Part shown: one piece after another, positions 1-22,678 of the stretch
Position numbering within the stretch: the first letter of the stretch is position 1
Layout: every line of letters starts with the position of its first letter
IMG/VR virus record: IMGVR_UViG_3300025736_000166
Coordinates: 1-26,445 of that record
Source of the DNA: a virus
Length of the DNA: 26,445 bases
Direction: 5' to 3' (one strand)
Notes under the pieces: model-generated
Databases searched by the model: none
What the model was told of the DNA's origin: nothing
Seen by the model: only the letters and a program-made list of their open reading frames with translations
Position numbers and translations under genes: made by a program

Positions 1-1941
1 CATAATAACACCATCGGCTTTGATAATGCTGTCATGAGCAGAACATCCGCCGTTTGATATGTCAAGTTTTACCAAGTCAGGCATTGACCGTTTTTCAACT
101 TGTGCTGATTCTACAATGCAGAGCGTGTCGTCGTCAAGTTTCTTTAGCCCCATAACATCGTTGTCAAGCTGAACAACAGAGCCATCAATCACGTCAGGGG
201 TGTCACCGAATGAACCAAGCTCACTGAACACCGCATCACGAACCACATCCTTTTCACGAAGCTGTCCATCCCATCGTATATCGCCATATACCACACGGTC
301 TTTGATTTCCTCAGCATAACTGTAACCTTCAAGGAACGGTGAACGCTGTAGCCCGAACGTGTCGTCTATCAGTGGGAAGTTGTGACCGTTTATCTTGCGA
401 TAGTCACCCGCTTCAAGCCCTGCAAGCCAGTCATTAGCACCTATTACTGTTAGAAAGTGATAGTGATTGTCGTCAAATCCTACAATAGTATTATCGCCTA
501 TTTTCCAAGGATAGTTACCACCGGCTAAGTCATCCTTAAACGCGTCCTCTTGTGAAACTATTATGCTTTTAACGGGGTAGAAGTTTGTCTGCTCTGTCGT
601 CTGAGAACGGTGTTCAAGTCTTCCAAGCCAAATGCGTATACTGGTAACACGTGGACTTGTACGGTCTGGATAGTCATCGCCATCAACTGTATTAAGTGAT
701 ATGAGCCCTAATTTAAGACGTACTACAATTACATTCCATAGACTAAGTGACGGATTGATTGCATCCGAAAGAGCACACCCCACAGGGATAGCATCTAATG
801 TTCCCATCTTAGATTTATTTACGTCTATTGATGCTTGGCGACTAATATCAGTATTAGTAACATTATAGATTTGACTTTCTTGCGACCCATCATAGATATA
901 GCTAATGCCAACATAGAAGTAGATAAGATTGTCTTCACCGTCTATAAATTGATCAACCGGACTAATGCCATCGCTCCATCTCCATGCGGCATTATTAGCA
1001 CCATCTACTCCATCATATACCAAGAAAGGAACTACGCTGTTATATAACTCAAGGGCATCATCCATCTTATTCTCTGCGTTATATAGTGTGTACCAATCTT
1101 TTAACGAATCCCATAGAGAGCCAGCATCAAAAGCCCCCGGATCAGCGGCTAATCTACCATAGTGAGTAGGCGAATATACTGCGTGGTTGTCGTGACCTAA
1201 TGCCTCATTGGCGTTCGTATAAGCATTATCTTCTCTTGGCGGTTGCAACGGAGTAACATCAAGCATCCAGTTGTTGAAGTTGATAGCACTTATAAAGAAC
1301 TTGCGATCAATACGACCGTACCACAGCGGTATAGCCTTAGCTCCCGTGCCTAACCCCATCCTTAATACACCCTTGCTGTCCCAAAAGTGAGCGTGTGGTG
1401 AAGGAATAGGGCGGGATGTTATAGCCATACCACCACGTGTCAAGACGGGTCTCAGTCTTTCCCAAAACCACTCAGTAACACCAAGATCATTCTGATACGT
1501 ATTCTCCAATACAACCCAACCCGGATGAAGCCCAAAGTGATAGCGATAGAACAGGTTGTTACTGCATTGTATTACGTGACGCTGTGTAGTGCCACCACCG
1601 TAGTCAGGCTGTTCCCACTCGTAGATAGCAACTATCCGTATGTCATCACCACCTGCATCCCCAAGGTGAACACCACCAGTTTCGGGAGTACCTACTACGG
1701 AATCATAGTCGGTGTCGCTTGTCGGTAGTACAGCAGGTTGATCCTTCTCTTCTCCCTGTCCCATCGGGTTCAGTGGGTAGATAACGTCACTTTTATATAG
1801 CGCAAGATAACCGGCACGCCCTAAGAGCCGTCCGTTAGGGAATAGCTCTACGTCCTTTGCAACCTCCGCACTACGGAAGTTCTTGTCAAACGTGCTCTTT
1901 GAACGGTCTATACCGCCGAAGCCCTTGCTTACTATATTCAT
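1..1941 (-). CDS. Large virion protein, tail-hub/nozzle-like candidate (3' end outside window)
   Basis: An uninterrupted minus-strand frame runs 647 codons from ATG at 1941 to the left edge with no stop, so the C-terminus is outside the window. Its start overlaps the previous gene's stop by ATGA, implying coupled translation. The N-terminus (MNIVSKGFGGIDRS, then a segment containing NGRLLGRAGYLAL around residues 37-49) resembles the N-terminal pattern of P22 gp10 or T7 gp12-type tail hub proteins, where a list of early beta strands precedes an RxG motif. The rest is rich in Trp, Tyr, Asp and Gly as in beta-propeller tail proteins. Position after adaptor and capsid genes supports a tail role. 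The family assignment is inference; that it is a real gene is near certain. Confidence 0.6.
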   Translation of the reverse strand, partial: MNIVSKGFGGIDRSKSTFDKNFRSAEVAKDVELFPNGRLLGRAGYLALYKSDVIYPLNPMGQGEEKDQPAVLPTSDTDYDSVVGTPETGGVHLGDAGGDDIRIVAIYEWEQPDYGGGTTQRHVIQCSNNLFYRYHFGLHPGWVVLENTYQNDLGVTEWFWERLRPVLTRGGMAITSRPIPSPHAHFWDSKGVLRMGLGTGAKAIPLWYGRIDRKFFISAINFNNWMLDVTPLQPPREDNAYTNANEALGHDNHAVYSPTHYGRLAADPGAFDAGSLWDSLKDWYTLYNAENKMDDALELYNSVVPFLVYDGVDGANNAAWRWSDGISPVDQFIDGEDNLIYFYVGISYIYDGSQESQIYNVTNTDISRQASIDVNKSKMGTLDAIPVGCALSDAINPSLSLWNVIVVRLKLGLISLNTVDGDDYPDRTSPRVTSIRIWLGRLEHRSQTTEQTNFYPVKSIIVSQEDAFKDDLAGGNYPWKIGDNTIVGFDDNHYHFLTVIGANDWLAGLEAGDYRKINGHNFPLIDDTFGLQRSPFLEGYSYAEEIKDRVVYGDIRWDGQLREKDVVRDAVFSELGSFGDTPDVIDGSVVQLDNDVMGLKKLDDDTLCIVESAQVEKRSMPDLVKLDISNGGCSAHDSIIKADGVIM

Positions 1942-2612
1942 TGTCTTACCGGTTTCATTAGTCGTCCAGCCGCTCCCTGAATCCAAGCATCAGGAATTTG
2001 TCTGCGAATATACAGATACATAAGATTAGTAGTAGCTGTTTTAAGGTTCTTAACTTTGAAGCGAACATACGGAGACCTTATGTGAAGCGTGTCATAGAGT
2101 TGCCTCGCTATGTCTCCTTGTGCCGATGACTGCGCAAGACTACATATATTGCTTACTCCATTGGCGAATATCGTATCAGTCACTTGGAATCCATAAGCAA
2201 AGCCACTATCAGCCATTAGACTTGAGTAGTGAATCGCCTGTTCTACTGTGACACGAATAGTGTCAAGAGCTGTACCCATTGCGAATATGGACATTTCAAT
2301 ATCAGTCCCCACGAACTCCCAACAAGGCAAGTATCCGCCAACTGCACCTGAGCTATCGGGTGACGTGTACGATCCACTTCCGATACCACCTGTGTATGTG
2401 TAATCAAGGCTATCTACTATGAAGGAAGTATAGACTGTATTCCCAAACATCACGTTGCCACGACTACCATCTGTAGGATTGCTTTCTGCGATAGTCATAC
2501 TTGGCTGTATGCCAACAGTCTTAACCCGAAGGAATATTCCACCATCCGTAGCTCCGAACGCAACAGAAGCAACTACAGCGATAAATAACGCTATGTAGGT
2601 TGTTTTCTTCAT
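1938..2612 (-). CDS. Virion-region protein with an N-terminal signal peptide
   Basis: This encodes 224 residues. The N-terminus is a textbook Sec signal: MKK, a hydrophobic stretch (residues 5-18) and a likely signal peptidase I site after SVAFGA. The mature part is rich in Ser, Thr, Gly and Tyr with alternating beta pattern and has no motif I recognise. It overlaps both neighbours by 4 bases (ATGA at each end), so it is embedded in the tail operon and is translated with the adaptor gene. A signal peptide on a gene of the virion operon is unusual, because virion proteins assemble in the cytoplasm. It may be exported to the envelope, or the hydrophobic N-terminus may serve in ejection. Function unknown. 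Confidence 0.8.
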   Translation of the reverse strand: MKKTTYIALFIAVVASVAFGATDGGIFLRVKTVGIQPSMTIAESNPTDGSRGNVMFGNTVYTSFIVDSLDYTYTGGIGSGSYTSPDSSGAVGGYLPCWEFVGTDIEMSIFAMGTALDTIRVTVEQAIHYSSLMADSGFAYGFQVTDTIFANGVSNICSLAQSSAQGDIARQLYDTLHIRSPYVRFKVKNLKTATTNLMYLYIRRQIPDAWIQGAAGRLMKPVRQ

Positions 2613-3733
2613 CGGTTACTATGGCTCATACGTGATTGTCCTTCTCCCTTGCCCTTAATATCACGAAGGAAGTTCTGCATATACTTTTCAACCATAAGAA
2701 GAGCAATGTTTAGCTCTGCTGTAGGTACGGGTGAAGTTGTTGCCAACATTTCTATTGACTTATTCACTATAAGCTCTTGGTGCAGGTTAAGCGGTGACGG
2801 AGGTGCATCAGTATCGTCAACCAGCTTTTGAGGTACGGCGTGATGTGTTACCACAAGTACGCAGTCTGAAAGAGTTACCGTATCTAAGTATAAAAGGTTT
2901 GCCCCAGTAAGGACAACAGTGTCATCTGATAAGACTATATCCATAGCAGTTGTGTCTGCTTGGAATCTAAGGGTTACACGTTGCCAAGAAGTAGTAGGGG
3001 TGAATGTTGTACTATAATCGCCCATAGTTACAGTAACCGCTCCTCCGTCCCACGTTGTAGCATACTTTACATAGAATGAAAGTGAGTAATAATTCCCTAT
3101 CACAAGAGCAGTGATGTCATCAGAGGATAACGTCAGCGTCATAGCATTAGGTGCGGCATCACGAGTGTATAGACCAGCATTACCACTAACACCACCAGCA
3201 ACCACAGTTCCACCACCACCAACCGCAACCCAATCTGCCATAGTCAACGGGTTTAGCGTTGTGAAGTTTCTGTTCTCTGCGTCTATGATCATCTCGGTTG
3301 AAGCTGGTATGGCTATGCCAAAGTTCAGCTTCTCATTACGGATGCTGTATCCGTTGTTCGTGTACAGTTGTGACCATTCACGCCGATTGACATTAGGAAA
3401 TCTTACAGAGTCACGGTACATATCACGGTTAGGAGCAAGAGGTATCTCCTGACCATCAACCATTACTGTCATCATAGAACCATAGTCATCACCAATATCT
3501 TCGGGGTTAGAACCACGAAGGTTATGGAATAAACGAGTGCCGTCCGTCTTAACGCCAACGGTACGCTCGTAGTATCCAGTGTCCTTAGCGATCTCCCCAA
3601 CGGCACGGTTAATAGCACCATCGTAGAAAATCTTTGGTATCCGTTCGTATGTAGTAGAAGTTGAAGGATTGTCCTGCATCTTAAACTTCAGTATGTCACG
3701 AACGTCTTTGAGTGTAGCTTGAATGATTGACAT
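2609..3733 (-). CDS. Head-tail adaptor-like protein with inserted beta-sandwich domain
   Basis: This encodes 374 residues. The first ~155 residues are helical then beta and look like the connector ring proteins that dock under the portal: a start LKDVRDILKFKM, then FYDGAINRAVGEIAKD and a later basic WSQLYTNNGYSIRNEKL. The C-terminal ~80 residues (VPQKLVDDTDAPPSP, then LHQELIVNKSIEMLA) continue that pattern. Between them, about residues 155-290, lies a Thr/Gly-rich segment with YSLSFYVKYAT and SWQRVTLRFQA, typical of carbohydrate-binding beta-sandwich modules. Without the insert the protein would be about 240 residues, closer to known adaptors. Its stop overlaps the next ATG by four bases. Adaptor identity is inferred from pattern plus position. 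Confidence 0.6.
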   Translation of the reverse strand: MSIIQATLKDVRDILKFKMQDNPSTSTTYERIPKIFYDGAINRAVGEIAKDTGYYERTVGVKTDGTRLFHNLRGSNPEDIGDDYGSMMTVMVDGQEIPLAPNRDMYRDSVRFPNVNRREWSQLYTNNGYSIRNEKLNFGIAIPASTEMIIDAENRNFTTLNPLTMADWVAVGGGGTVVAGGVSGNAGLYTRDAAPNAMTLTLSSDDITALVIGNYYSLSFYVKYATTWDGGAVTVTMGDYSTTFTPTTSWQRVTLRFQADTTAMDIVLSDDTVVLTGANLLYLDTVTLSDCVLVVTHHAVPQKLVDDTDAPPSPLNLHQELIVNKSIEMLATTSPVPTAELNIALLMVEKYMQNFLRDIKGKGEGQSRMSHSNR

Positions 3734-4128: not shown

Positions 4129-5517
4129 TTAGGTTAAGGACGGGGGTGGTGAATTAGTGACCAGCAATACTGATCCGTAGTGATCGGTAGATGTTGGAGT
4201 CTGTGAATGCGTACGTGGCTTGTCAACATCGTCGATACGCATAAGACCCATATCAACCATCCAGTCAACGTAACGAGGATGCGGGGTACGAGGATGCTCG
4301 TACTCTTCCATCTTCGGCTCTTCGCCAACAGCAAGACCGATTGCACGGTTGCCCCAAATGATACCGACCTTCAGTGCGTTCTCCTGATCACCGCCGGGAG
4401 AGTTTTCTGCATAATACTCAATGCAGTCAGGTGTCTTTCCGGTACGGGTCTGAGCTAAACTTGCGCCTGTTCCGGTAGTGTTACCAAAATACAGAAGATC
4501 ATCATCATTTGATTCCGCCCCTCCGACCTTATAGGCGTGAACTTCAGGAGCACCAACGATAGTATCAAAGATGGCAAATCCTTCGTAGTAAATCTCAGCA
4601 CCGGCAATGGACGGATGCTCCTTTGCCTTGCTATTGTATGCTGAATCGCCAAGAGAGATGATACGCTCGTCTTGCTTCAGTTGATACATCTGATCGGAGT
4701 GTACAGATACAGCCCAATACGGCTTGCCTTCAACCATTGCAGTCGGTTCAATCTTCTTGCGCTGTAGCGTTGTTTTCGCTTTCAACAGAAGGTCTGAACT
4801 GAATGTTTCGTTTGCGGCTGGTACTGCGCCATTGTTGTACAGACCGGTGATGTTCGCTGATCCTACAAGAGCGTTAATAATACTTGCCTTGTATGTTGCC
4901 ATAGTGTTTGAATACGTGACGTATCCATTACCAGCAACAAGAATATTCGGGTGATAGGAAAGTCCTAATCCTAATCCACCCGGATCGCTTGATGTGAGCA
5001 TCGAAGAGCGACCTTCGCAGAGAGACCAAATGACTTCTGCTTCAAACATCTTCTGCCACCAACGATTGATCATAATGGTAGCTTCGTTTTCAAGCATTGC
5101 ATTCTTGGCGAGGCGTTCAATCTGCGAACCGATAAACGACTGATAAGACTTTACAACCTTACCGGTCATAAACTCCTGCAACTTACGAGAGCCAATCTCT
5201 TCGTGAGAAGTAGGATCGCCGTCTCCAAGTGCAGAGTAACCACCGCTGATGTCACCGGCTACGGGAACCAAGAGACGGTTAGTTGACTTGAATCCGTTGA
5301 ACCGGACGATAGGAGAGTTTAATGATGGGAACTTACCGCTATTCGTGTCATAGGTGTACTCGTCTTTCCTGCCAGACGGAACCATTGAGTTGAATGAACT
5401 GAAGAACCGTGAGAAGAATGATGCAACCATTGGTTGCAAGAGGCACTTAAGAGCTACCTCGTCTGGGGTTAAAAAACCACCAGTTACTACGTGTATTCCG
5501 GGATTATGTGAGGACAT
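4129..5517 (-). CDS. Probable major capsid protein
   Basis: This encodes 462 residues and lies just after the scaffold gene, with a 9-base gap, the usual place of the coat gene. The N-terminus names a packed N-arm (LLQPMVASFFSRFFSSFNSMV) followed by a Pro/Arg-rich loop region (TNRLLVPVAG, DGDPTSHEEIG), a long helix (KSYQSFIGSQIERLAKNA) that could be the spine helix, and a later A-domain-like stretch (YWAVSVHSDQMYQL, VHAYKVGG). This order resembles the N4 gp56/DUF4043-type capsid proteins. The C-terminal 25 residues are Ser/Thr/Pro-rich and probably flexible. No protease gene is seen nearby. The capsid role is well supported by context; the exact family is inference. Confidence 0.75.
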   Translation of the reverse strand: MSSHNPGIHVVTGGFLTPDEVALKCLLQPMVASFFSRFFSSFNSMVPSGRKDEYTYDTNSGKFPSLNSPIVRFNGFKSTNRLLVPVAGDISGGYSALGDGDPTSHEEIGSRKLQEFMTGKVVKSYQSFIGSQIERLAKNAMLENEATIMINRWWQKMFEAEVIWSLCEGRSSMLTSSDPGGLGLGLSYHPNILVAGNGYVTYSNTMATYKASIINALVGSANITGLYNNGAVPAANETFSSDLLLKAKTTLQRKKIEPTAMVEGKPYWAVSVHSDQMYQLKQDERIISLGDSAYNSKAKEHPSIAGAEIYYEGFAIFDTIVGAPEVHAYKVGGAESNDDDLLYFGNTTGTGASLAQTRTGKTPDCIEYYAENSPGGDQENALKVGIIWGNRAIGLAVGEEPKMEEYEHPRTPHPRYVDWMVDMGLMRIDDVDKPRTHSQTPTSTDHYGSVLLVTNSPPPSLT

Positions 5518-5526
5518 AAATTATCC

Positions 5527-6192
5527 TTATCTGTGTAAGTTTTTCCTGATTTCTGCCTCCACCGAGTCATAGTTATTACCCGGCTTTGGAGGATTAGCTG
5601 GCGGATTACCGCCCCCTTTGGGAAGTGTTGTGACAGGCTTCCTTTCAGCACCAACAGGAACGACCTTTACTTGACCTGTCTGTATCTGATAGATCGTATA
5701 GAAGTCAGCGTGACTAAGCCGTTTTTTCTCGAAGTGCTTATCGAGTGCGGATAGATCGGCTTTCGGATTAGATGACACAAATGCCTCTCTATCACTGTTC
5801 CATTGTACGGCTTCGTCTGTTAGTTCCGGTTCGGGCTTCTTTCTTGCGGCTTCACGCTCGTCTAAGAGTGCCGTTGTATAGGCATCCCTTAGCTCTTTGG
5901 TTTCGCCACTTTCGACTATCTTATCCCAAAGCAGATTGCTCTGCTTGGGTTTTTCTGCGTCGATTTGAGCGAGCCTCTTGCGTATATCTGCATTTTCCTG
6001 TTGTGACTTTGTTAGTGCGGCTTGCGTATCCTTGAATCGCTTTTCAGTCTTAGCGGAAGATTCGGCAAGGAGTGCTTCTAACTGTGGCTTAGTGAGTACG
6101 ACATCCTCTGCTTCTGTTTCTTCTACTACTTCTTCGGGGTTGTCAACTCCCTCATCAGGCTGTAATACCTGTCCTTCTTCTTCGTCTGGCAT
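5527..6192 (-). CDS. Scaffolding protein
   Basis: This encodes 221 residues. The first ~30 residues are extremely acidic (MPDEEEGQVL, NPEEVVEETEAEDV). Residues about 35-85 form a charged heptad-rich coiled coil (KTEKRFKDTQAALTKSQQE). The C-terminal third has a Pro/Gly-rich linker (GGGNPPANPPKPG) and a short basic tail (EAEIRKNLHR), matching scaffolds that use a basic C-terminal helix to bind coat protein. It sits between portal and coat genes, as in P22-like and many other phages. The function is transient organisation of the procapsid. Confidence is high from composition and position, though scaffolds have little sequence conservation. Confidence 0.8.
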   Translation of the reverse strand: MPDEEEGQVLQPDEGVDNPEEVVEETEAEDVVLTKPQLEALLAESSAKTEKRFKDTQAALTKSQQENADIRKRLAQIDAEKPKQSNLLWDKIVESGETKELRDAYTTALLDEREAARKKPEPELTDEAVQWNSDREAFVSSNPKADLSALDKHFEKKRLSHADFYTIYQIQTGQVKVVPVGAERKPVTTLPKGGGNPPANPPKPGNNYDSVEAEIRKNLHR

Positions 6193-6334: not shown

Positions 6335-8218
6335 CTAAGGTGCTACAGGAGGTTGCCCTGTATCGCCTTGTGGTGGCTGTTGAATCTGTTGTTCGCTTGG
6401 CGTTCCGGGTTGCTGTGGCTGTCCACCTTCTTGACCCGGAACTTGAGGCATTTGGCTAAGACCATACATACGCTCGATAAGCATATCAAACTTAGTCGCT
6501 ATAGCTTCTGCATTAGGCAATGACATAAGTCTTACAATCTCAGGGGCAAGTACAGCCTTAAACTCATCAGGTAGAGACTTAACGCTCTCGCTGAAGCCAG
6601 CGAACTCGTCTTGACGTTGTGACTTAGTCATTGGAGTCTCTTCAATGGTAACGTCATACTTAGCATAGGTGCGCTTCTGTATAAGCTCCCAAACATTAGG
6701 CTCACGCTCTATGATCTTGTTCCACCTTTTTTCTCCAAGTATCTCAATAACATCTTCCTTGTCATATACATCAGGTATCATTTCAAGGATAATCTTGCCC
6801 TTCATACGCTGGCACAGTATCCAGTTCTTCATTATCATTGCTATTGCAGTACTGCCTTGTAATATCTTGAGGCTGTACAGCTTACCACTTTCTCCGCTTC
6901 CTTCAGTCATCCCCCTGCTTGCTGGCGGAATAAGACCTAAGTCGATCCAATCCTTGTCGTTTAACGCTTGAGATTGATATAGTCCACCGGGTATCTGCAT
7001 TTCTACGGGAACAGGAGCACCAACATCGGAAAGTGTTATACCCTTATATCCGGGTGTTGATCCGTGCTCTATCATATCCTCTCTAAGTGCTTCGTCCCCC
7101 TTACGGAATAGAAGAGCACCATTAGCACCTTTGGCAAGTATCTCCGCCATAATACTACGGCTTATATTAAGCTCTTCCTGTATCCCGATCAAATCTTCAA
7201 CGTATCCCTGCGAGTCTATGATTTTAAGACCAAGATTCATTGGGGTAAATACGCTTGTGGGGAAATACTTATATCCATAATCCTTTTCATCAAGTAACTT
7301 ATCTGCGTATGGGTAGTAGTGTGCGACCGTGATCTTAGGAAGTTTTGCCGTCTTTGGAATCCATCTGCCATCGTTAAGTTCTGGTTCAATGGTAGTGTAT
7401 GTCCCGTCGTATTCGTGTACCCATATATCGGTATCAACGATGCGAACATACCAGTTTTCCATAACCTTGTACATTCCGTGCTGATACACGGAAATCTTAT
7501 CTATCGGTGTACTGTCACGCAAGAGAGACTTAAACCTTCCAATGATACCCTTCCAGAATCCATTAAACTCATTTACGCTGAAATCTTCTTTAGACAGTAG
7601 CTTTGATCCATCTAAGTCCTTCTCCTTCCCCCACTCGTCCATTATCTCATCACTACTCATCCATATTTCACGTTGCATCCCCTTCCAGTCCTTCTGCATT
7701 ATGTTACGTGCATTGGGGTCTAAGTAGATTTCCGTGTTGTTCTGACAGTCTATGTCAAACGAACGCTTATCTGTTATAGGGTCAACCTTAATGCGTATAA
7801 AGTAGAACCCTGTCCCGCCGATAATGCCATCCGCTTCAACGAGCGTATTGATGTAGTCAGCGTCCTCGTTGTATAAAACGTGTGACAATATACCCGTAAG
7901 CACTTCAGCAACAGCATCATCTTCTGCGCCAACACGCTCTACCTTTAGGGTAATCTCGTTCTGTAGCATTAGCCCAAGCATCTGACGCACAAGTGGGCCA
8001 ATCTTGTTTATAGTTATGCAGGGACGAAACTCTCCCGCAAGCCTTCTGCGGTCATCGTCACTCCATTGACCATCAGGGCGAACCATAGAATTGTTCTTCG
8101 CAACCTGATCGTTCCGGTCTGTCCACTCGTTATAGTGGTGGAAGTATAAGCCAACTATACGATCAATCGTATCTTGTCTTAGTTCTTCTTTAGTTTTGGT
8201 AGTTTCTGTCCTGACCAA
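6335..8218 (-). CDS. Portal protein, P22 type
   Basis: This encodes 627 residues forming the dodecameric DNA gate of the capsid vertex. Evidence is the N-terminal helix with a DRNDQ stretch, the hallmark RPCITINKIGPLVRQMLG near residues 83-100 that is typical of P22-like portals, DADYINTLVEADGIIGGTGF around residue 125, and a long helical stem and crown region. The C-terminal ~45 residues are Gln/Pro/Gly-rich (PQVPGQEGGQPQQPG) and probably disordered. Its ATG at 8218 lies 40 bases inside the terminase gene in another frame, so the two are translationally coupled. It is followed by a 142-base gap before the scaffold gene, the largest gap in the head operon. Confidence 0.9.
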   Translation of the reverse strand: MVRTETTKTKEELRQDTIDRIVGLYFHHYNEWTDRNDQVAKNNSMVRPDGQWSDDDRRRLAGEFRPCITINKIGPLVRQMLGLMLQNEITLKVERVGAEDDAVAEVLTGILSHVLYNEDADYINTLVEADGIIGGTGFYFIRIKVDPITDKRSFDIDCQNNTEIYLDPNARNIMQKDWKGMQREIWMSSDEIMDEWGKEKDLDGSKLLSKEDFSVNEFNGFWKGIIGRFKSLLRDSTPIDKISVYQHGMYKVMENWYVRIVDTDIWVHEYDGTYTTIEPELNDGRWIPKTAKLPKITVAHYYPYADKLLDEKDYGYKYFPTSVFTPMNLGLKIIDSQGYVEDLIGIQEELNISRSIMAEILAKGANGALLFRKGDEALREDMIEHGSTPGYKGITLSDVGAPVPVEMQIPGGLYQSQALNDKDWIDLGLIPPASRGMTEGSGESGKLYSLKILQGSTAIAMIMKNWILCQRMKGKIILEMIPDVYDKEDVIEILGEKRWNKIIEREPNVWELIQKRTYAKYDVTIEETPMTKSQRQDEFAGFSESVKSLPDEFKAVLAPEIVRLMSLPNAEAIATKFDMLIERMYGLSQMPQVPGQEGGQPQQPGTPSEQQIQQPPQGDTGQPPVAP

Positions 8219-10134
8219 TATCCGCTCGTGTGTGGGTTGCGATTAGCGGACTTAAAGCGATAACCTCTGCTTAATCGTTCGCTAAAGATTTGTTTTTCTA
8301 CTACCGTCGGGGGATCGTCACGCTTGTCTCCTTCAAGACATAGGGCATCTGACATTACACAATCGTCGTGACTGCCCTGTTTCGCGCCAATCTTACCGTT
8401 GGAATAGCTTGTGAAGTTCTGGTGTTCTTTTACTACAATCAGACTTTGAAATCCTGTCTTGTCTATGAAGGCATTGTCAACATAGCTATCACGAATCATT
8501 ATCTGAGAACGAAGCAATAATGCTTTCTTTGTACTGTCACCCTGACCGCCTGTCGTTCTCCATCCGATGTCATGCTCTTTAGTCTGTATTGTGATTGAGC
8601 TCGGATACTGCTCTTGGCTGTATAGCCTGTCAAGCGGTATCTTATACAAGTTGCATAGACGTATTGATTCCTTAACAGTGCTTAGACCAATGCCGTTCTT
8701 CTCAATCACTTCTAATGGGTAACTATAATGCCACTGTCCATCTTTAACTATAATCTCTACACGGTAGTAGATCATTAGTTGAACCCCAAGTAACGCAAGT
8801 TTATCAGCGGCAAGTTTGTTACGACTAATTGCTACTTGCTTGCCTGTTACTCTATCACGAACAGTAATAACAGACCAGTCCGTATCGTTACTTGTTGACT
8901 TCTTGTTCGTTCCTGCTATAAGACTCTTATCAATGCCTTCTGAAGTGTCAATACCAATACAATAACGCCGTTCTGTCCTATCGTTAAGTATTGGGTGTGC
9001 GTATATTTCAACCGCCTGACACTCTGGCTTGTATCCACCAGCAATTACGTCACTGTCAAGTTCAAATACAACGTCGCTATCTTCTGTAAAGCTAAGTATG
9101 CCACGCTCCGCATTCGGCGGATTAGCGGCAAGGTTGTTATAGATTCTACTAAGTGCTTCTTGTGAGAAGTACGGTGAGCCTGTTGACAAGAACGCCTCTT
9201 CCCAAGAACAAGGATACTCTTGGTGGAAAACATTTACATCGCCACCACAGTAATCAGAGATCATCATCCTACGCCAGCGCATTTGATTCTCTGTCAAGCT
9301 AAATGACGTTGCTATCTGCCGTTCTTCTGCGCTGTACTGCAAAGCATCGTCATATTCAAACGGTGCTAAAGTGTATTCCGGGTTATCAAACCACGCTAAG
9401 AAGATCGGCGTGTAGTTATTCTTCCCTGTTATAGCATCAATCCATAGCGAGTGAAATGCGTTACCAACGCCGTTTGCTGTTGACTCGTTAAATACGAAAG
9501 CATCCTTAGAAAGGGCTTGCATAACCGATGTCATACCAATCTTATCACTCTTCCAGAACGCAAGCTCTGAAATATGGATAGCCTGTTTAGTGAACGATCT
9601 TGTACTGTTCGGGCTACCTGCTGTGAATAACTGCACACTGCTCTTGATACCACTGAACTTCAACATATTCTTGTTCTTGGTGTCAGGAATAGGCTTATAC
9701 GGAGAACTATAGTAATTCGTGTACGTCAGGAACATTTCGTAAAGGTTCTGCGTAGCACCATCTTCGTGTGTTATAACTCCGGCTTTGTATCCCTTGCTTG
9801 TGATGACGAGCCAGAAGAGTATCGCTTCTATAAGTGTGCTAATGCCTTCTTGACGGGCTTTAAGTATGATAAACTTAGAAACCTTGCCTGCCATAAGCGC
9901 ATCAATGATAATATCTAATACTACTTTCTGTGGTCTATTCAGTGCGAACGGTACTGGTGCTCCACCCCGCTTGAGTACGATGCTTAGGTATCGTTCACAG
10001 AACTCAGGGAAGTGTTCCCACATTTGGTATCGTTCGTACCATTCTTCTTCGTTATATTCTTTCCACTTGCTCATAGGTAGTTTTGGGGGTGCGTAACGCT
10101 CTTTTATGCTTTTTGCTTGTGTAGCGTATTGCAC
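8179..10134 (-). CDS. Terminase large subunit (packaging ATPase/nuclease)
   Basis: This encodes 651 residues. ATPase motifs: Walker A variant LKARQEGIST (about residues 92-101), Walker B-like AIHISELAFW (about 186-195) with catalytic Glu, and coupling motif FNESTANG (about 214-221). The RNase H-like nuclease starts with CIGIDTSEGIDKS (first Asp, about residue 392), continues with DWSVITV, and ends with the acidic HDDCVMSDAL near residue 594. Packaging role and order (terminase, portal, scaffold, capsid) are standard. The start chosen is GTG at 10134; its upstream G-run abuts the codon, so the next ATG at 10077 (MSKWKEYNEEEW) is an alternative. No obvious small subunit is recognised, though unknown genes lie upstream. 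Confidence 0.92.
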   Translation of the reverse strand: MQYATQAKSIKERYAPPKLPMSKWKEYNEEEWYERYQMWEHFPEFCERYLSIVLKRGGAPVPFALNRPQKVVLDIIIDALMAGKVSKFIILKARQEGISTLIEAILFWLVITSKGYKAGVITHEDGATQNLYEMFLTYTNYYSSPYKPIPDTKNKNMLKFSGIKSSVQLFTAGSPNSTRSFTKQAIHISELAFWKSDKIGMTSVMQALSKDAFVFNESTANGVGNAFHSLWIDAITGKNNYTPIFLAWFDNPEYTLAPFEYDDALQYSAEERQIATSFSLTENQMRWRRMMISDYCGGDVNVFHQEYPCSWEEAFLSTGSPYFSQEALSRIYNNLAANPPNAERGILSFTEDSDVVFELDSDVIAGGYKPECQAVEIYAHPILNDRTERRYCIGIDTSEGIDKSLIAGTNKKSTSNDTDWSVITVRDRVTGKQVAISRNKLAADKLALLGVQLMIYYRVEIIVKDGQWHYSYPLEVIEKNGIGLSTVKESIRLCNLYKIPLDRLYSQEQYPSSITIQTKEHDIGWRTTGGQGDSTKKALLLRSQIMIRDSYVDNAFIDKTGFQSLIVVKEHQNFTSYSNGKIGAKQGSHDDCVMSDALCLEGDKRDDPPTVVEKQIFSERLSRGYRFKSANRNPHTSGYWSGQKLPKLKKN

Positions 10135-10153: not shown

Positions 10154-10930
10154 TTATTCTAATCGAGCACCGGCTGAAAATGCCGTATAAGTTGCACTCG
10201 CAGTCATGCGTCCTTCTGTTCCAGCACCAGCAGAGCGTAACAATATCTCTGCACCATCGGGTATAAATAACTCAATGTCAGGTGCAGATCCAAACGCACC
10301 GGGTAGAATTACTGTAGTCGAGGTGCCTGAGGTAGCTGAAGCAACAACGAATACCGTGTTAGCGTCAACCAATGCCCCATTAGCCTCAATTCCCTCATCA
10401 AGGTCTGCAATCGCAGGAGTTCCTCTTACGGTGAACCATATTGAATCCGTGGCGGAATTAAACTGTGTAGCGACTTTCCACGATAGATTATGGATTATAA
10501 TGTCGCCAACTGCGGTGAATGCCACAAGGGAGTCAACGGCGGCAGTAACAGCTAAATCTTCAATGGTAATGCGCCTAAAGCCATTTAGCAACAAGGTATC
10601 AGCGATTATCTCAACTACGGTTATCTGTGCCGATATATTGTCAATATCTGTCGCAGTAGGAAGCGCGTCAATATCGGTACTATCAGACACACGAGCGGCT
10701 TGAATGGTCGCCGGTAAGGTAACAACTGTAGCCGTAGAACAAGCATCAGCGGTAGTTTGCAAGATTGCAGTATTATCAAGACCTGTTTCTATCTTGACAT
10801 TTGCCGCATCTAAGCTATCCTGTGACGTGGTTTGGGAATTGATTATCCCTGTCTGTACTGGGCTCGGTAGTCCTTGAGCAAACGCCATTCCGGCAATCAG
10901 CACTAAGACGATGATTAAATACTTTTTCAT
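10154..10930 (-). CDS. Signal-peptide beta-rich protein upstream of terminase
   Basis: The chosen start is ATG at 10930, behind GGAG five bases away; a longer frame to 10972 would overlap the previous gene and lacks a ribosome binding site. The 258-residue product begins with MKKYLIIVLVLIAGMAFAQG, a clear Sec signal with a signal peptidase I site after AFA. The mature part is Ala/Thr/Asp-rich with repeated short beta strands (TLPATIQAARVSDSTDIDALP, later TVRGTPAIADLDEG) and few aromatic residues. No family is recognised. Like the 1938-2612 product, it is an exported-looking protein inside a head operon. It could be a host envelope or surface-acting factor, or a virion protein with a misleading N-terminus. 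Confidence 0.8.
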   Translation of the reverse strand: MKKYLIIVLVLIAGMAFAQGLPSPVQTGIINSQTTSQDSLDAANVKIETGLDNTAILQTTADACSTATVVTLPATIQAARVSDSTDIDALPTATDIDNISAQITVVEIIADTLLLNGFRRITIEDLAVTAAVDSLVAFTAVGDIIIHNLSWKVATQFNSATDSIWFTVRGTPAIADLDEGIEANGALVDANTVFVVASATSGTSTTVILPGAFGSAPDIELFIPDGAEILLRSAGAGTEGRMTASATYTAFSAGARLE

Positions 10931-10940
10931 TTTAGTCTCC

Positions 10941-11738
10941 TTACGCCGCAGCGATAGTTGCACCATCGGCATTACGCACGAAGGTCATATGAACTGCGAG
11001 CGATCCCGCACCAGATAATGCCGCTGTACCAGCCTGAAGATACAGTATCTTGCCAGTAGCAACGCTGTAGCCAATATCAGACGCTACAAATCCTGTAGTA
11101 CCAGTACCTAAGTCAGTAGCATCAAGAGTAGCTCCAGTTGCAACGAGCATTTCAGTAAGCGGCGTGGTTGCATCATTTGAACGAACATACACACCAGATG
11201 TAGCACCACCACAAATCGTGTTGTCATTCTGTAAAGCAATCCGCTTCAGCACTACGTTACCAGAAGCCGCACCAGTAATTGCAAGTCCTGTTCCGGTATG
11301 AATCACAGTTGTCTTAGTGATTATCTTGGTGATGGTGAACTCTGTACCTGCTCCAGTGTTACTTGAAGCATCAAGCATAGCAGAGAACTCATCAGTGCAG
11401 ATCATAACCAAGTCGGCTGATGCCCAACCTGTGGTACAAGCCGCTGTAGTTACTTGTCCTGAAGTTGTGCTTGCTGTAATGTCAAGCTCAACCCCATTAT
11501 TTGCCGCAGTGTTACAATCAACGCCACGAACCTTCCATCCGGTAGCAAAGAAGTTAGTACCAAACTTTCCTTCTTTGTCTTTCGTATTGGCTTTCAAAGC
11601 CTCTACGATTACAACCGTAGTGGAAGTTACAACGGATGTGATGCGAACAAGAAACGCAGGAGGCAAAACCCCCATTAGATTTCCGCCGCTTAGTTGTCCA
11701 ACCTTCCATCCGCTATGAATCAACTCTTCTGATGCCAT
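10941..11738 (-). CDS. Ala/Thr/Gly-rich structural-type protein
   Basis: This encodes 265 residues with a beta-rich, low-charge, Ala/Thr/Gly/Val-rich composition. Motifs that can be read include GWKVGQLSGGNL near the N-terminus, GWKVRGVDCNTAANNG and a closing NADGATIAAA. Such composition is common in phage decoration and fibre proteins. It starts one base after the small basic gene ends and stops 10 bases before the next start, so it is part of the same operon. There is no signal peptide, in contrast to the next gene. Four Cys in the middle could form disulphides or be coincidental. Function unknown; a virion component is the likely reading. Confidence 0.75.
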   Translation of the reverse strand: MASEELIHSGWKVGQLSGGNLMGVLPPAFLVRITSVVTSTTVVIVEALKANTKDKEGKFGTNFFATGWKVRGVDCNTAANNGVELDITASTTSGQVTTAACTTGWASADLVMICTDEFSAMLDASSNTGAGTEFTITKIITKTTVIHTGTGLAITGAASGNVVLKRIALQNDNTICGGATSGVYVRSNDATTPLTEMLVATGATLDATDLGTGTTGFVASDIGYSVATGKILYLQAGTAALSGAGSLAVHMTFVRNADGATIAAA

Positions 11739-14556: not shown

Positions 14557-14594
14557 TTTACTTCCCCTGTGTTTTTTATCCCCCATATACTGTG

Positions 14595-14676
14595 CGGATG
14601 GTCGAGGACTCGAACCCCGATGCCCTTGCGGACGGCAGTTTAGCGAACTGCTGCAATACCATTATGCGAACCATCC
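14595..14676 (-). tRNA. tRNA-Ser(GCT) with C at position 33
   Basis: On the minus strand the cloverleaf is complete: acceptor GGATGGT with ACCATCC, D-stem GCA with TGC and a GG-containing loop, anticodon stem GCAGT with ACTGC, a long variable arm (GTCC with GGGC) typical of Ser, and T-arm with loop TTCGAGT. The anticodon loop reads TCGCTAA, giving anticodon GCT, but position 33 is C instead of the near-universal T. Discriminator G fits Ser. CCA is not encoded; the next bases are CAC. Confidence 0.88.
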
Positions 14677-14680
14677 TGTG

Positions 14681-14765
14681 CGGCGGATGAGGGACTCGAA
14701 CCCCCAAGAGTAATTAGCTCGGTAGTTTTCAGGACTACTGCCTTGCGCAATTAGGCTAACCCGCC
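14681..14765 (-). tRNA. tRNA-Ser(TGA) with C at position 33
   Basis: On the minus strand acceptor GGCGGGT pairs with ATCCGCC (one G-T pair). The anticodon stem is GTAGT with ACTAC and the loop CCTGAAA gives anticodon TGA, again with C rather than T at position 33. The variable arm (GAG with CTC) is long, as for Ser. The D-loop (TAATTGCGCAA) lacks the usual GG, so its contact with the T-loop (TTCGAGT) may be altered. Discriminator is G, followed by CAC and not CCA. It lies four bases from the other tRNA-Ser. Confidence 0.83.
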
Positions 14766-19128: not shown

Positions 19129-19239
19129 ATGCGCGATATACTGGGCTTGGGGCTTGTCGTATGCCTTTTAGTCATAGCGTGGGGGCTGGCGTGGATATAT
19201 ACGAAAGTCTACCTTTGGATAACAAGGGATAAAAAATGA
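19129..19239 (+). CDS. Short single-pass membrane peptide
   Basis: This 36-residue frame starts at ATG 19129, behind AGGGGCG, and ends with TGA overlapping the integrase start as ATGA. The product is one hydrophobic helix (LGLGLVVCLLVIAWGLAWIY) with a positively charged tail (TRDKK). Too short for family assignment. The coupling to the integrase gene and the SD support translation. Confidence 0.6.
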   Translation: MRDILGLGLVVCLLVIAWGLAWIYTKVYLWITRDKK

Positions 19240-20045
19240 GCAATCTAATCGTAACGGACGAGGGAGAGAGGTCTGCCGTCCGAGCGTGGCTTAATATTCA
19301 GAGGTCTGCTAACACTCGGAGGGCTTATGAGCGCATAGCAATAGCCTACATAACGGCGTACAGCCTACGGGAGGCGGGAATAGAACAGCTTGTAATTTGG
19401 CAACAGGGGTTGAGGGGTTCGTCGTCATCGGTAGCACTGTCAACGGCGGCGATAAAGTCACTCTATAGCTTTCTCTATCGGGCGGGAGCTATCCCGATTA
19501 ACCCGGCTACACTTCTGAAAGTGCCGAGAGTAAGGAGTAACCTTGCCGAGCGGATATTATCGGTTGACGAGGTGCGGGCTATCTTGAAAGAGGCTCGTAA
19601 CGGGAAAAACGGTGTAAGGAATCACTCTCTCTTTGCCTTGATGTTTTACTCCGGTCTGCGAATTTCAGAGGTGGAGTCACTTAATTGGAGCGACTTAAGG
19701 GGCGGGGTTTTGAATGTATGGGGCAAGGGAGAGAAGGAGCGTAACGTAACCCTCCCGGAGTCACTGGCTGAAGAGCTTGAGCGGTTGCGAGGTGATGGTA
19801 GTATGTTCGGAATAGAGAGGTCTGTCATCCATAAAACGATCAAAGGCATAATCAAACGAGCTGGTTTGGGTGTTAAAATCTCTTGCCACTGGCTACGACA
19901 CGCGAACGCAAGCATTGCTCTTGACGGGGGAGCGTCTATCAAGTGCATTCAAGAGACACTTGGGCACTCGTCTATAAATACAACGGCGAGGTATCTGCAC
20001 GTGAAGCCGGGTGAAAGTTCTGGCAATTTTCTCCCAAAGTTGTAA
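19236..20045 (+). CDS. Tyrosine recombinase / integrase, XerC-D-like
   Basis: This encodes 269 residues. The N-terminal ~95 residues form a SAM-like core-binding domain (VRAWLNIQRSANTRRAYERI). The catalytic domain has Arg in YSGLRISEVESL, the HWLRH box (H..R) in SCHWLRHANASI, then LGHSSINTTARYLHV with the third His and the catalytic Tyr. All catalytic residues are visible, so it is intact. The small size matches XerC/XerD-like enzymes more than large lambda-type integrases that carry an arm-binding domain. It could integrate the phage, resolve multimers or invert DNA. No attP can be identified by eye. It is the last gene before promoter P2. Confidence 0.92.
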   Translation: MSNLIVTDEGERSAVRAWLNIQRSANTRRAYERIAIAYITAYSLREAGIEQLVIWQQGLRGSSSSVALSTAAIKSLYSFLYRAGAIPINPATLLKVPRVRSNLAERILSVDEVRAILKEARNGKNGVRNHSLFALMFYSGLRISEVESLNWSDLRGGVLNVWGKGEKERNVTLPESLAEELERLRGDGSMFGIERSVIHKTIKGIIKRAGLGVKISCHWLRHANASIALDGGASIKCIQETLGHSSINTTARYLHVKPGESSGNFLPKL

Positions 20046-21193: not shown

Positions 21194-21710
21194 AATGTCA
21201 CAACTTTATCGGGACATTGAAGTTCTCTTGATTGAGAGCGAGGGCGAGGTTACTCCCCAAATTCAAAGCCTACTCAATATGCAGTTCGCCGCTAACCCGG
21301 AATCAACCGTTGAGAGTATGCTAAACCTTGCCGCTGAAGCGAGGGCACGGGGTGAACTACTTGACGCACAGGTTGACCGCTGGAAGGCTGAGAGCAAGGT
21401 TGAGAAGGCACGTGCGGAGAAGCTGGTTGGGTTAGTGGACTCGTTTATGGTAGACACCAAGCGGGACAAGCTGACCGCTGGAGTCTATCAGTTAAAGTTC
21501 AAGAAGCTACCGGCAAGCATCGCAGTAGGAGAGGTTAATCTTAAAACTGTTGCGCCGGAGTTTGTACGGGTGACGGTTACAACCGAGCTCAATAAAGTTG
21601 ATCTATTGAAGGCTTGGAAAGTCAAGGGCGATGAGATATTGCCAGCAGGAATCACAGTAAACACTACCGGCAAGAAATTAGCCGGTTACACCATCAAGGG
21701 AGTAAAATGA
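21180..21710 (+). CDS. Gp157-family phage protein
   Basis: The start is ATG 21180 (a longer frame to 21135 overlaps the previous gene without an SD). The 176-residue product fits the Siphovirus Gp157 family: start MKLFEMSQLYRDIEVLL, long central coiled coil (DRWKAESKVEKARAEKLVGL), then KLTAGVYQLKFKKLPASIAV and LLKAWKVKGDEILPAGI at the C-terminus, matching the family's beta-rich end with its KKxPxS-like motif. Gp157 proteins usually accompany phage single-strand annealing and recombination genes, and one was linked to altered phage sensitivity. Here it is directly followed by the Rad52-like gene, by ATGA overlap. Confidence 0.85.
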   Translation: MKLFEMSQLYRDIEVLLIESEGEVTPQIQSLLNMQFAANPESTVESMLNLAAEARARGELLDAQVDRWKAESKVEKARAEKLVGLVDSFMVDTKRDKLTAGVYQLKFKKLPASIAVGEVNLKTVAPEFVRVTVTTELNKVDLLKAWKVKGDEILPAGITVNTTGKKLAGYTIKGVK

Positions 21711-22678
21711 GTAACGAAATCGCAACGGTTGATAGCCAAACGGGTGATCTTGTTCCCGTCATCAATCACGAACAGGCACTAACACACGAACAAGCAAGGG
21801 TGAACTCTGTATCACTTGCCTATAGTTCAGCAATGAACAAGGCAAGCACACTTGTGCTTAGCAAAGAAGAGAGCGACGGGTTGCAAACAGACTTCCCGGA
21901 CGAAGCGTTCAAGAAGGGGGCGGCTGGAAAGGATGATCTTATTTACATTGAACACGCTTACCTTCGTGACAGGCTTAACTCGGTGCTTGGACTTGGACAG
22001 TGGGCAATTCTAAGAACCCGTCCAAATTGGGCTGAAAACTACGAGGTTAAGGATTGGAAAACAAAGGGAATGAAGCCCGCAATTAGGGTATATTCAGACT
22101 GTTGCCTTATCATCAGGGGCTGTATGGTTGGAGAGGCTATCGGTGATATGAGCTACTTCCCCGATAACGCATCAATGACCTATTCTGATTGTGCTGAAGG
22201 ATCAAAGACGCAGGCGTTAAGACGTTGCGCCAAAGACTTCGGGATAGGGTTGCAGGCTTGGAAAAAAGGGTGGTGCGATGGATGGTGGAAACGCAATCCG
22301 AGCGGACGTGCCTCGTATCAGCCTAAACAGGCAGAGCAACCATCAGAACCACTTCCACCAGCTAAACCACGTAAGCCGTTCACTGTTGAGTCACTCGTCA
22401 AGAAAGCCCACGAGGCTGAGGACGTAGAACAGCTTGACAGTTTGACAGTCTGGCTTGATAAGCGCACGGGAGTCTACGACACGGCAGAGCGCAAACCTAT
22501 TCGTGCCGCTATTAGCATCAGGCAAGCGGTCTTGACCCCAAAGCCGAAGGTGGAGCTAAAGGAGGAGACTGCATACGAAGCACCGCCTGACCAGACTCCG
22601 ACGAACGAGCGGGATGAGGACTTGGAGCTCTTTGGCACTGGCGACAACACGGATCAGTTCCTGAAGGGAGATAGGTAA
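21707..22678 (+). CDS. Rad52-family single-strand annealing protein
   Basis: This encodes 323 residues. The conserved Rad52/Sak-type core spans about residues 75-190: IYIEHAYLRDRLNSVLGLGQW, then a beta sheet ending in CCLIIRGCMVGEAIGDMSY, then the hallmark SDCAEGSKTQALRRCAKDFGIG and WKKGWCDGWW. The C-terminal ~120 residues are Pro-rich and acidic (DEDLELFGTGDN), as often seen in phage annealing proteins that bind SSB or partners. It would anneal ssDNA during phage recombination and replication. Overlaps its neighbours (ATGA before, one base after). Family membership rests on pattern recognition of the core. Confidence 0.82.
   Translation: MSNEIATVDSQTGDLVPVINHEQALTHEQARVNSVSLAYSSAMNKASTLVLSKEESDGLQTDFPDEAFKKGAAGKDDLIYIEHAYLRDRLNSVLGLGQWAILRTRPNWAENYEVKDWKTKGMKPAIRVYSDCCLIIRGCMVGEAIGDMSYFPDNASMTYSDCAEGSKTQALRRCAKDFGIGLQAWKKGWCDGWWKRNPSGRASYQPKQAEQPSEPLPPAKPRKPFTVESLVKKAHEAEDVEQLDSLTVWLDKRTGVYDTAERKPIRAAISIRQAVLTPKPKVELKEETAYEAPPDQTPTNERDEDLELFGTGDNTDQFLKGDR

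Follow-up and report, generated by a model that had tools for sequence, protein, structure and literature searches.

Does this phage carry a carbohydrate-binding-type domain within the adaptor ring of its neck, and if so, what could the domain do there? The question is raised by a minus-strand ORF (2609-3733, 374 residues) in the window, by which we mean the whole stretch of DNA analyzed (a virus record, 26,445 bases long). An earlier note on this DNA read the ORF as a head-tail adaptor with an inserted carbohydrate-binding-like domain, displaying twelve sugar-binding modules on the neck, maybe for mucus or capsule attachment. The record is at least 99.6% identical to three IMG/VR contigs in the longer aligned stretches, and the adaptor gene has zero nucleotide differences in two further assemblies, one of which covers the first 1000 bases of the gene; the insert-bearing gene is thus not an assembly artifact. 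Searches of GenBank phages by tblastn, with the whole protein and with the insert, gave no match.

The gene neighborhood (Table 1) fits a podovirus. The order on the minus strand is terminase, P22-type portal, scaffold, capsid, a 106-aa ORF, adaptor, a 224-aa ORF, and probable nozzle, such that the adaptor gene sits between the capsid gene and the nozzle gene (the latter assigned by position) of the portal cluster; the full nozzle ORF, of 900 aa, is present in contig L006 (9148-11850). Scans of portal, capsid, and terminase alignments show no near lineage besides L024, which comes from a set of 80 virus loci fetched by terminase alignment with two GenBank phages. L024 has the same gene order, with homologues of the portal, capsid, 224-aa protein, and nozzle, and codes for two tandem insert-free adaptors (229 and 213 aa) between capsid and nozzle. 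Tandem adaptor pairs are seen in L024 (9699-11029), L032 (8155-9581), and L045 (8036-9615), and the window has one adaptor.

Table 1. Features of the adaptor gene and its neighbors in the window.
Feature	Positions	Strand	Basis
Adaptor N-terminal part, residues 1-145 (helices, first strands)	3299..3733	-	Residues 6-94 vs L024 adaptors, 30.4 bits
Inserted CBM_4_9-like beta-sandwich, residues about 146-290	2864..3298	-	Pfam match; model matches CBM4/16/22 folds; missing in L024 homologues
Adaptor C-terminal part, residues 291-374 plus stop (strand, helix bundle, tail)	2609..2863	-	Residues 274-325 vs L024 adaptors, 12.6 bits
Terminase large subunit	8179..10134	-	phrog_2, E 1.7e-20
P22-type portal, ring expected to bind adaptor	6335..8218	-	PF16510, E 1.4e-69
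Probable scaffold	5527..6192	-	By position, with portal and capsid on either side; no family matched convincingly
Major capsid protein	4129..5517	-	phrog_334, E 4.5e-8; L024 homologue, E 1.4e-27
224-aa protein, signal-peptide-like start, overlaps adaptor stop	1938..2612	-	L024 homologue, E 2e-5
Start of probable nozzle protein	1..1986	-	L024 homologue, E 4.7e-53; nozzle by position, no family match

Several other features of these genomes deserve mention. The protein encoded between adaptor and nozzle is conserved (window 1938-2612, minus strand; L024 11026-11709), and its signal-peptide-like N terminus is odd for a virion cluster; signal-peptide-like starts are also found just upstream of the terminase genes (window 10154-10972, minus strand; L024 1076-3050), where a 452-aa L024 protein has a beta-helical look by eye. 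The phage may be temperate because the window codes for a tyrosine integrase family protein (19236-20045, plus strand; PF00589, E 1.9e-27) and an Mgm101p-type protein (21707-22678, plus strand; E 8.7e-13). An adjacent pair of tRNA-Ser genes, with anticodons gct and tga, lies at 14594-14765 (minus strand).

The adaptor identity of the flanks follows from homology to the L024 adaptors, both of which exceed the Pfam SU10_adaptor cutoff of 27 bits (45.3 and 49.6 bits), as do L089 and several GenBank homologues; L089 can also be matched to the SU10 adaptor structure (7z47), along the same strand and helix. In phmmer searches both L024 adaptors (E 1.2e-5 and 1.7e-3) are matched by the window protein before and after the insert, and a two-sequence L024 profile scores it at 44.9 bits (E 3.2e-12) with the insert skipped, the best of 2000 shuffled-flank controls reaching 11.6 bits. 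Once residues 146-290 are deleted, the joined protein aligns to the L024 adaptors in a single stretch, over its residues 6-180, at 45.9 bits. We note that the SU10_adaptor family itself matches neither the whole protein, nor either flank, nor the joined flanks, and that a broad adaptor profile, once iterated, loses the window protein, so that its adaptor link rests on L024. The comparison with insert-free homologues that the earlier note had proposed has both flanks aligned and the middle skipped, and the view that this is an adaptor with an inserted beta-sandwich domain is well supported.

The character of the insert is indicated by CBM_4_9, the single Pfam match of the whole protein (residues 154-265, E 1.7e-4). 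Residues 146-290 on their own match this family at E 2.2e-5 and 25.3 bits, 0.6 bit below the curated cutoff of 25.9, and none of 10 shuffles of the insert has any match at E<=1. Together with the gap in the insert-free homologues, these results support the carbohydrate-binding-type sandwich proposed previously. Its boundaries are soft and are now placed at about 146-290, where the earlier note gave 155-290: when 145-residue stretches are deleted in turn, the best scores come from starts at ~88-137, and the optimum of a boundary scan is near 128-147 to 280-291, which fixes the ends no more closely than to ten residues or more. Residues 146 and 290 were adopted as ends since, with them, GIAIPAS joined to CVLVVTHHAVP aligns with NNIPGA joined to TLTVNFKYYKVP of L024. 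Among 36 related virus records, PF02018 gives a single weak match, below the cutoff. Other searches were set aside: phmmer of the insert against the PDB returned chance matches only, a three-sequence insert profile reached CBM-type PDB chains at E 0.02-0.1, which is not significant, and a WQRVT DNA pattern in genomes found short frames on ten Bacteroidales-type contigs, unlike CBM proteins.

Structure prediction points in the same direction, with low confidence. A single-sequence AlphaFold model of the whole protein (pLDDT 31.8) was useless and was discarded. A model of residues 130-305 built from four sequences has a pLDDT of 44.5 and a pTM of 0.45, with central strands at pLDDT 60-74. Its PDB matches are mostly CBM-type sandwiches, at Z 5.5-7.6, although values below 8 may reflect merely a common arrangement and searches with a low-confidence model need caution; the matches include Vip1 and binary toxin domains, CBM22, CBM4, CBM16, CBM35, and BiXyn10A CBM1. 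Matches of the same model in BFVD are mostly to phage tail, neck-appendage, and CenC-like CBM proteins.

Judged from sequence, the adaptor is interrupted immediately ahead of the strand that leads into helix 3. Adaptors of T7 and SU10 form dodecamers attached to the clip of the portal, and their subunits comprise a helix bundle, a fiber dock, and an element that embraces (PMC6702177, PMC9509320). Since the insert comes ahead of the strand leading into the third helix, the alignment would place it where T7 and SU10 have the fiber dock. The dodecamer, and with it the twelve modules of the earlier note, stands by analogy with these two adaptors (PMC6702177, PMC9509320), from which we infer twelve subunits per virion, below the portal.

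Domains of the CBM_4_9 family usually bind glycans, and the reading that we favor, at a probability of about 0.45, is that the insert serves putative contact with a glycan such as host capsule or exopolysaccharide. A CBM_4_9-type beta-sandwich of ~145 residues, inserted in a beta-hairpin turn of a podovirus-like SU10/T7-type adaptor, would face outward from the fiber-dock region, and twelve such sandwiches could make low-affinity glycan contacts that help to hold the virion on the cell until the nozzle opens. Since related ring proteins are without the sandwich domain, the neck may serve as an additional sticky surface. The further idea that twelve putative glycan-binding modules turn the neck itself into a ring for receptor binding or surface attachment that does not depend on tail fibers is rather doubtful. 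Of the uses suggested at the outset, mucus or capsule binding is thus one plausible use of the insert, with capsid bracing and fiber docking as live rivals.

Under capsid bracing, the insert would be structural, as beta-sandwiches at the necks of phages may be, and would steady the symmetry-mismatched contact of the adaptor ring with the capsid vertex, much as does the Ig-like attachment domain of R4C. The N-terminal Ig-like domain of the R4C adaptor indeed touches the capsid rather than sugar (PMC10276861), and the SU10 adaptor is likewise in contact with it (PMC9509320); however, the insert matches a CBM family and not an Ig family, and its place of insertion differs from that in R4C, and we regard this explanation as unlikely. 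A role in docking, in which the insert replaces or enlarges the fiber-dock hairpin and holds the N terminus of a tail fiber or spike, agrees with its aligned position, after the first helices and ahead of helix 3, in the presumed equivalent of the T7/SU10 dock, but no fiber gene was identified within the window, and T7 and SU10 dock their fibers without a 145-residue domain. We regard docking as slightly less likely than capsid bracing. Least probable is a functionless passenger, tolerated and retained owing to an exposed turn: the insert is known from one phage species only, which would suit such a domain, yet it is intact and nucleotide identical in other assemblies, which may themselves be one population.

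Few phage parts are as constrained as adaptors, and acceptance of a folded 145-residue domain in an adaptor hairpin turn would mark a site for twelve-copy display at the neck. Such an adaptor would also allow a test of whether phages hold on to sugars with the neck as well as with fibers.

Compared with known systems, the window protein shares a homologous core with the SU10 gp11 and T7 gp11 adaptors (PF24175; PDB 7z47) via the L024 and L089 adaptors, and has the same capsid-to-nozzle gene position, but those adaptors are without the CBM-like insert. Residues 146-290 resemble CBM_4_9 (PF02018) and CBM4/16/22 modules in sequence motif and, in the low-confidence model, in fold; such modules are usually attached to glycoside hydrolases or, where phages carry them, to tail proteins. 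None of 34 adaptor-family matches shows a CBM insert, judged by length and, for part of them, by family searches, and the partially covered open literature yielded no description of an adaptor with a CBM inserted in it. The second adaptor of L045 (8650-9615) is an adaptor-family protein with a beta-rich region of ~110 aa; this addition is C-terminal and of other sequence, whereas that of the window protein is an insert. The 34 matches agree with the earlier view that adaptor rings seldom carry insertions. This view yet needs qualification, as the R4C adaptor, like the window protein, has an extra beta-sandwich domain on its ring (PMC10276861), and the R4C tail bears several carbohydrate-binding-type domains (PMC10276861). 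The R4C domain is N-terminal, Ig-like, and in contact with the capsid, whereas that of the window protein is an internal, CBM-like insertion; a sandwich on an adaptor is thus already known, and the CBM-type insertion is seen in one phage species only.
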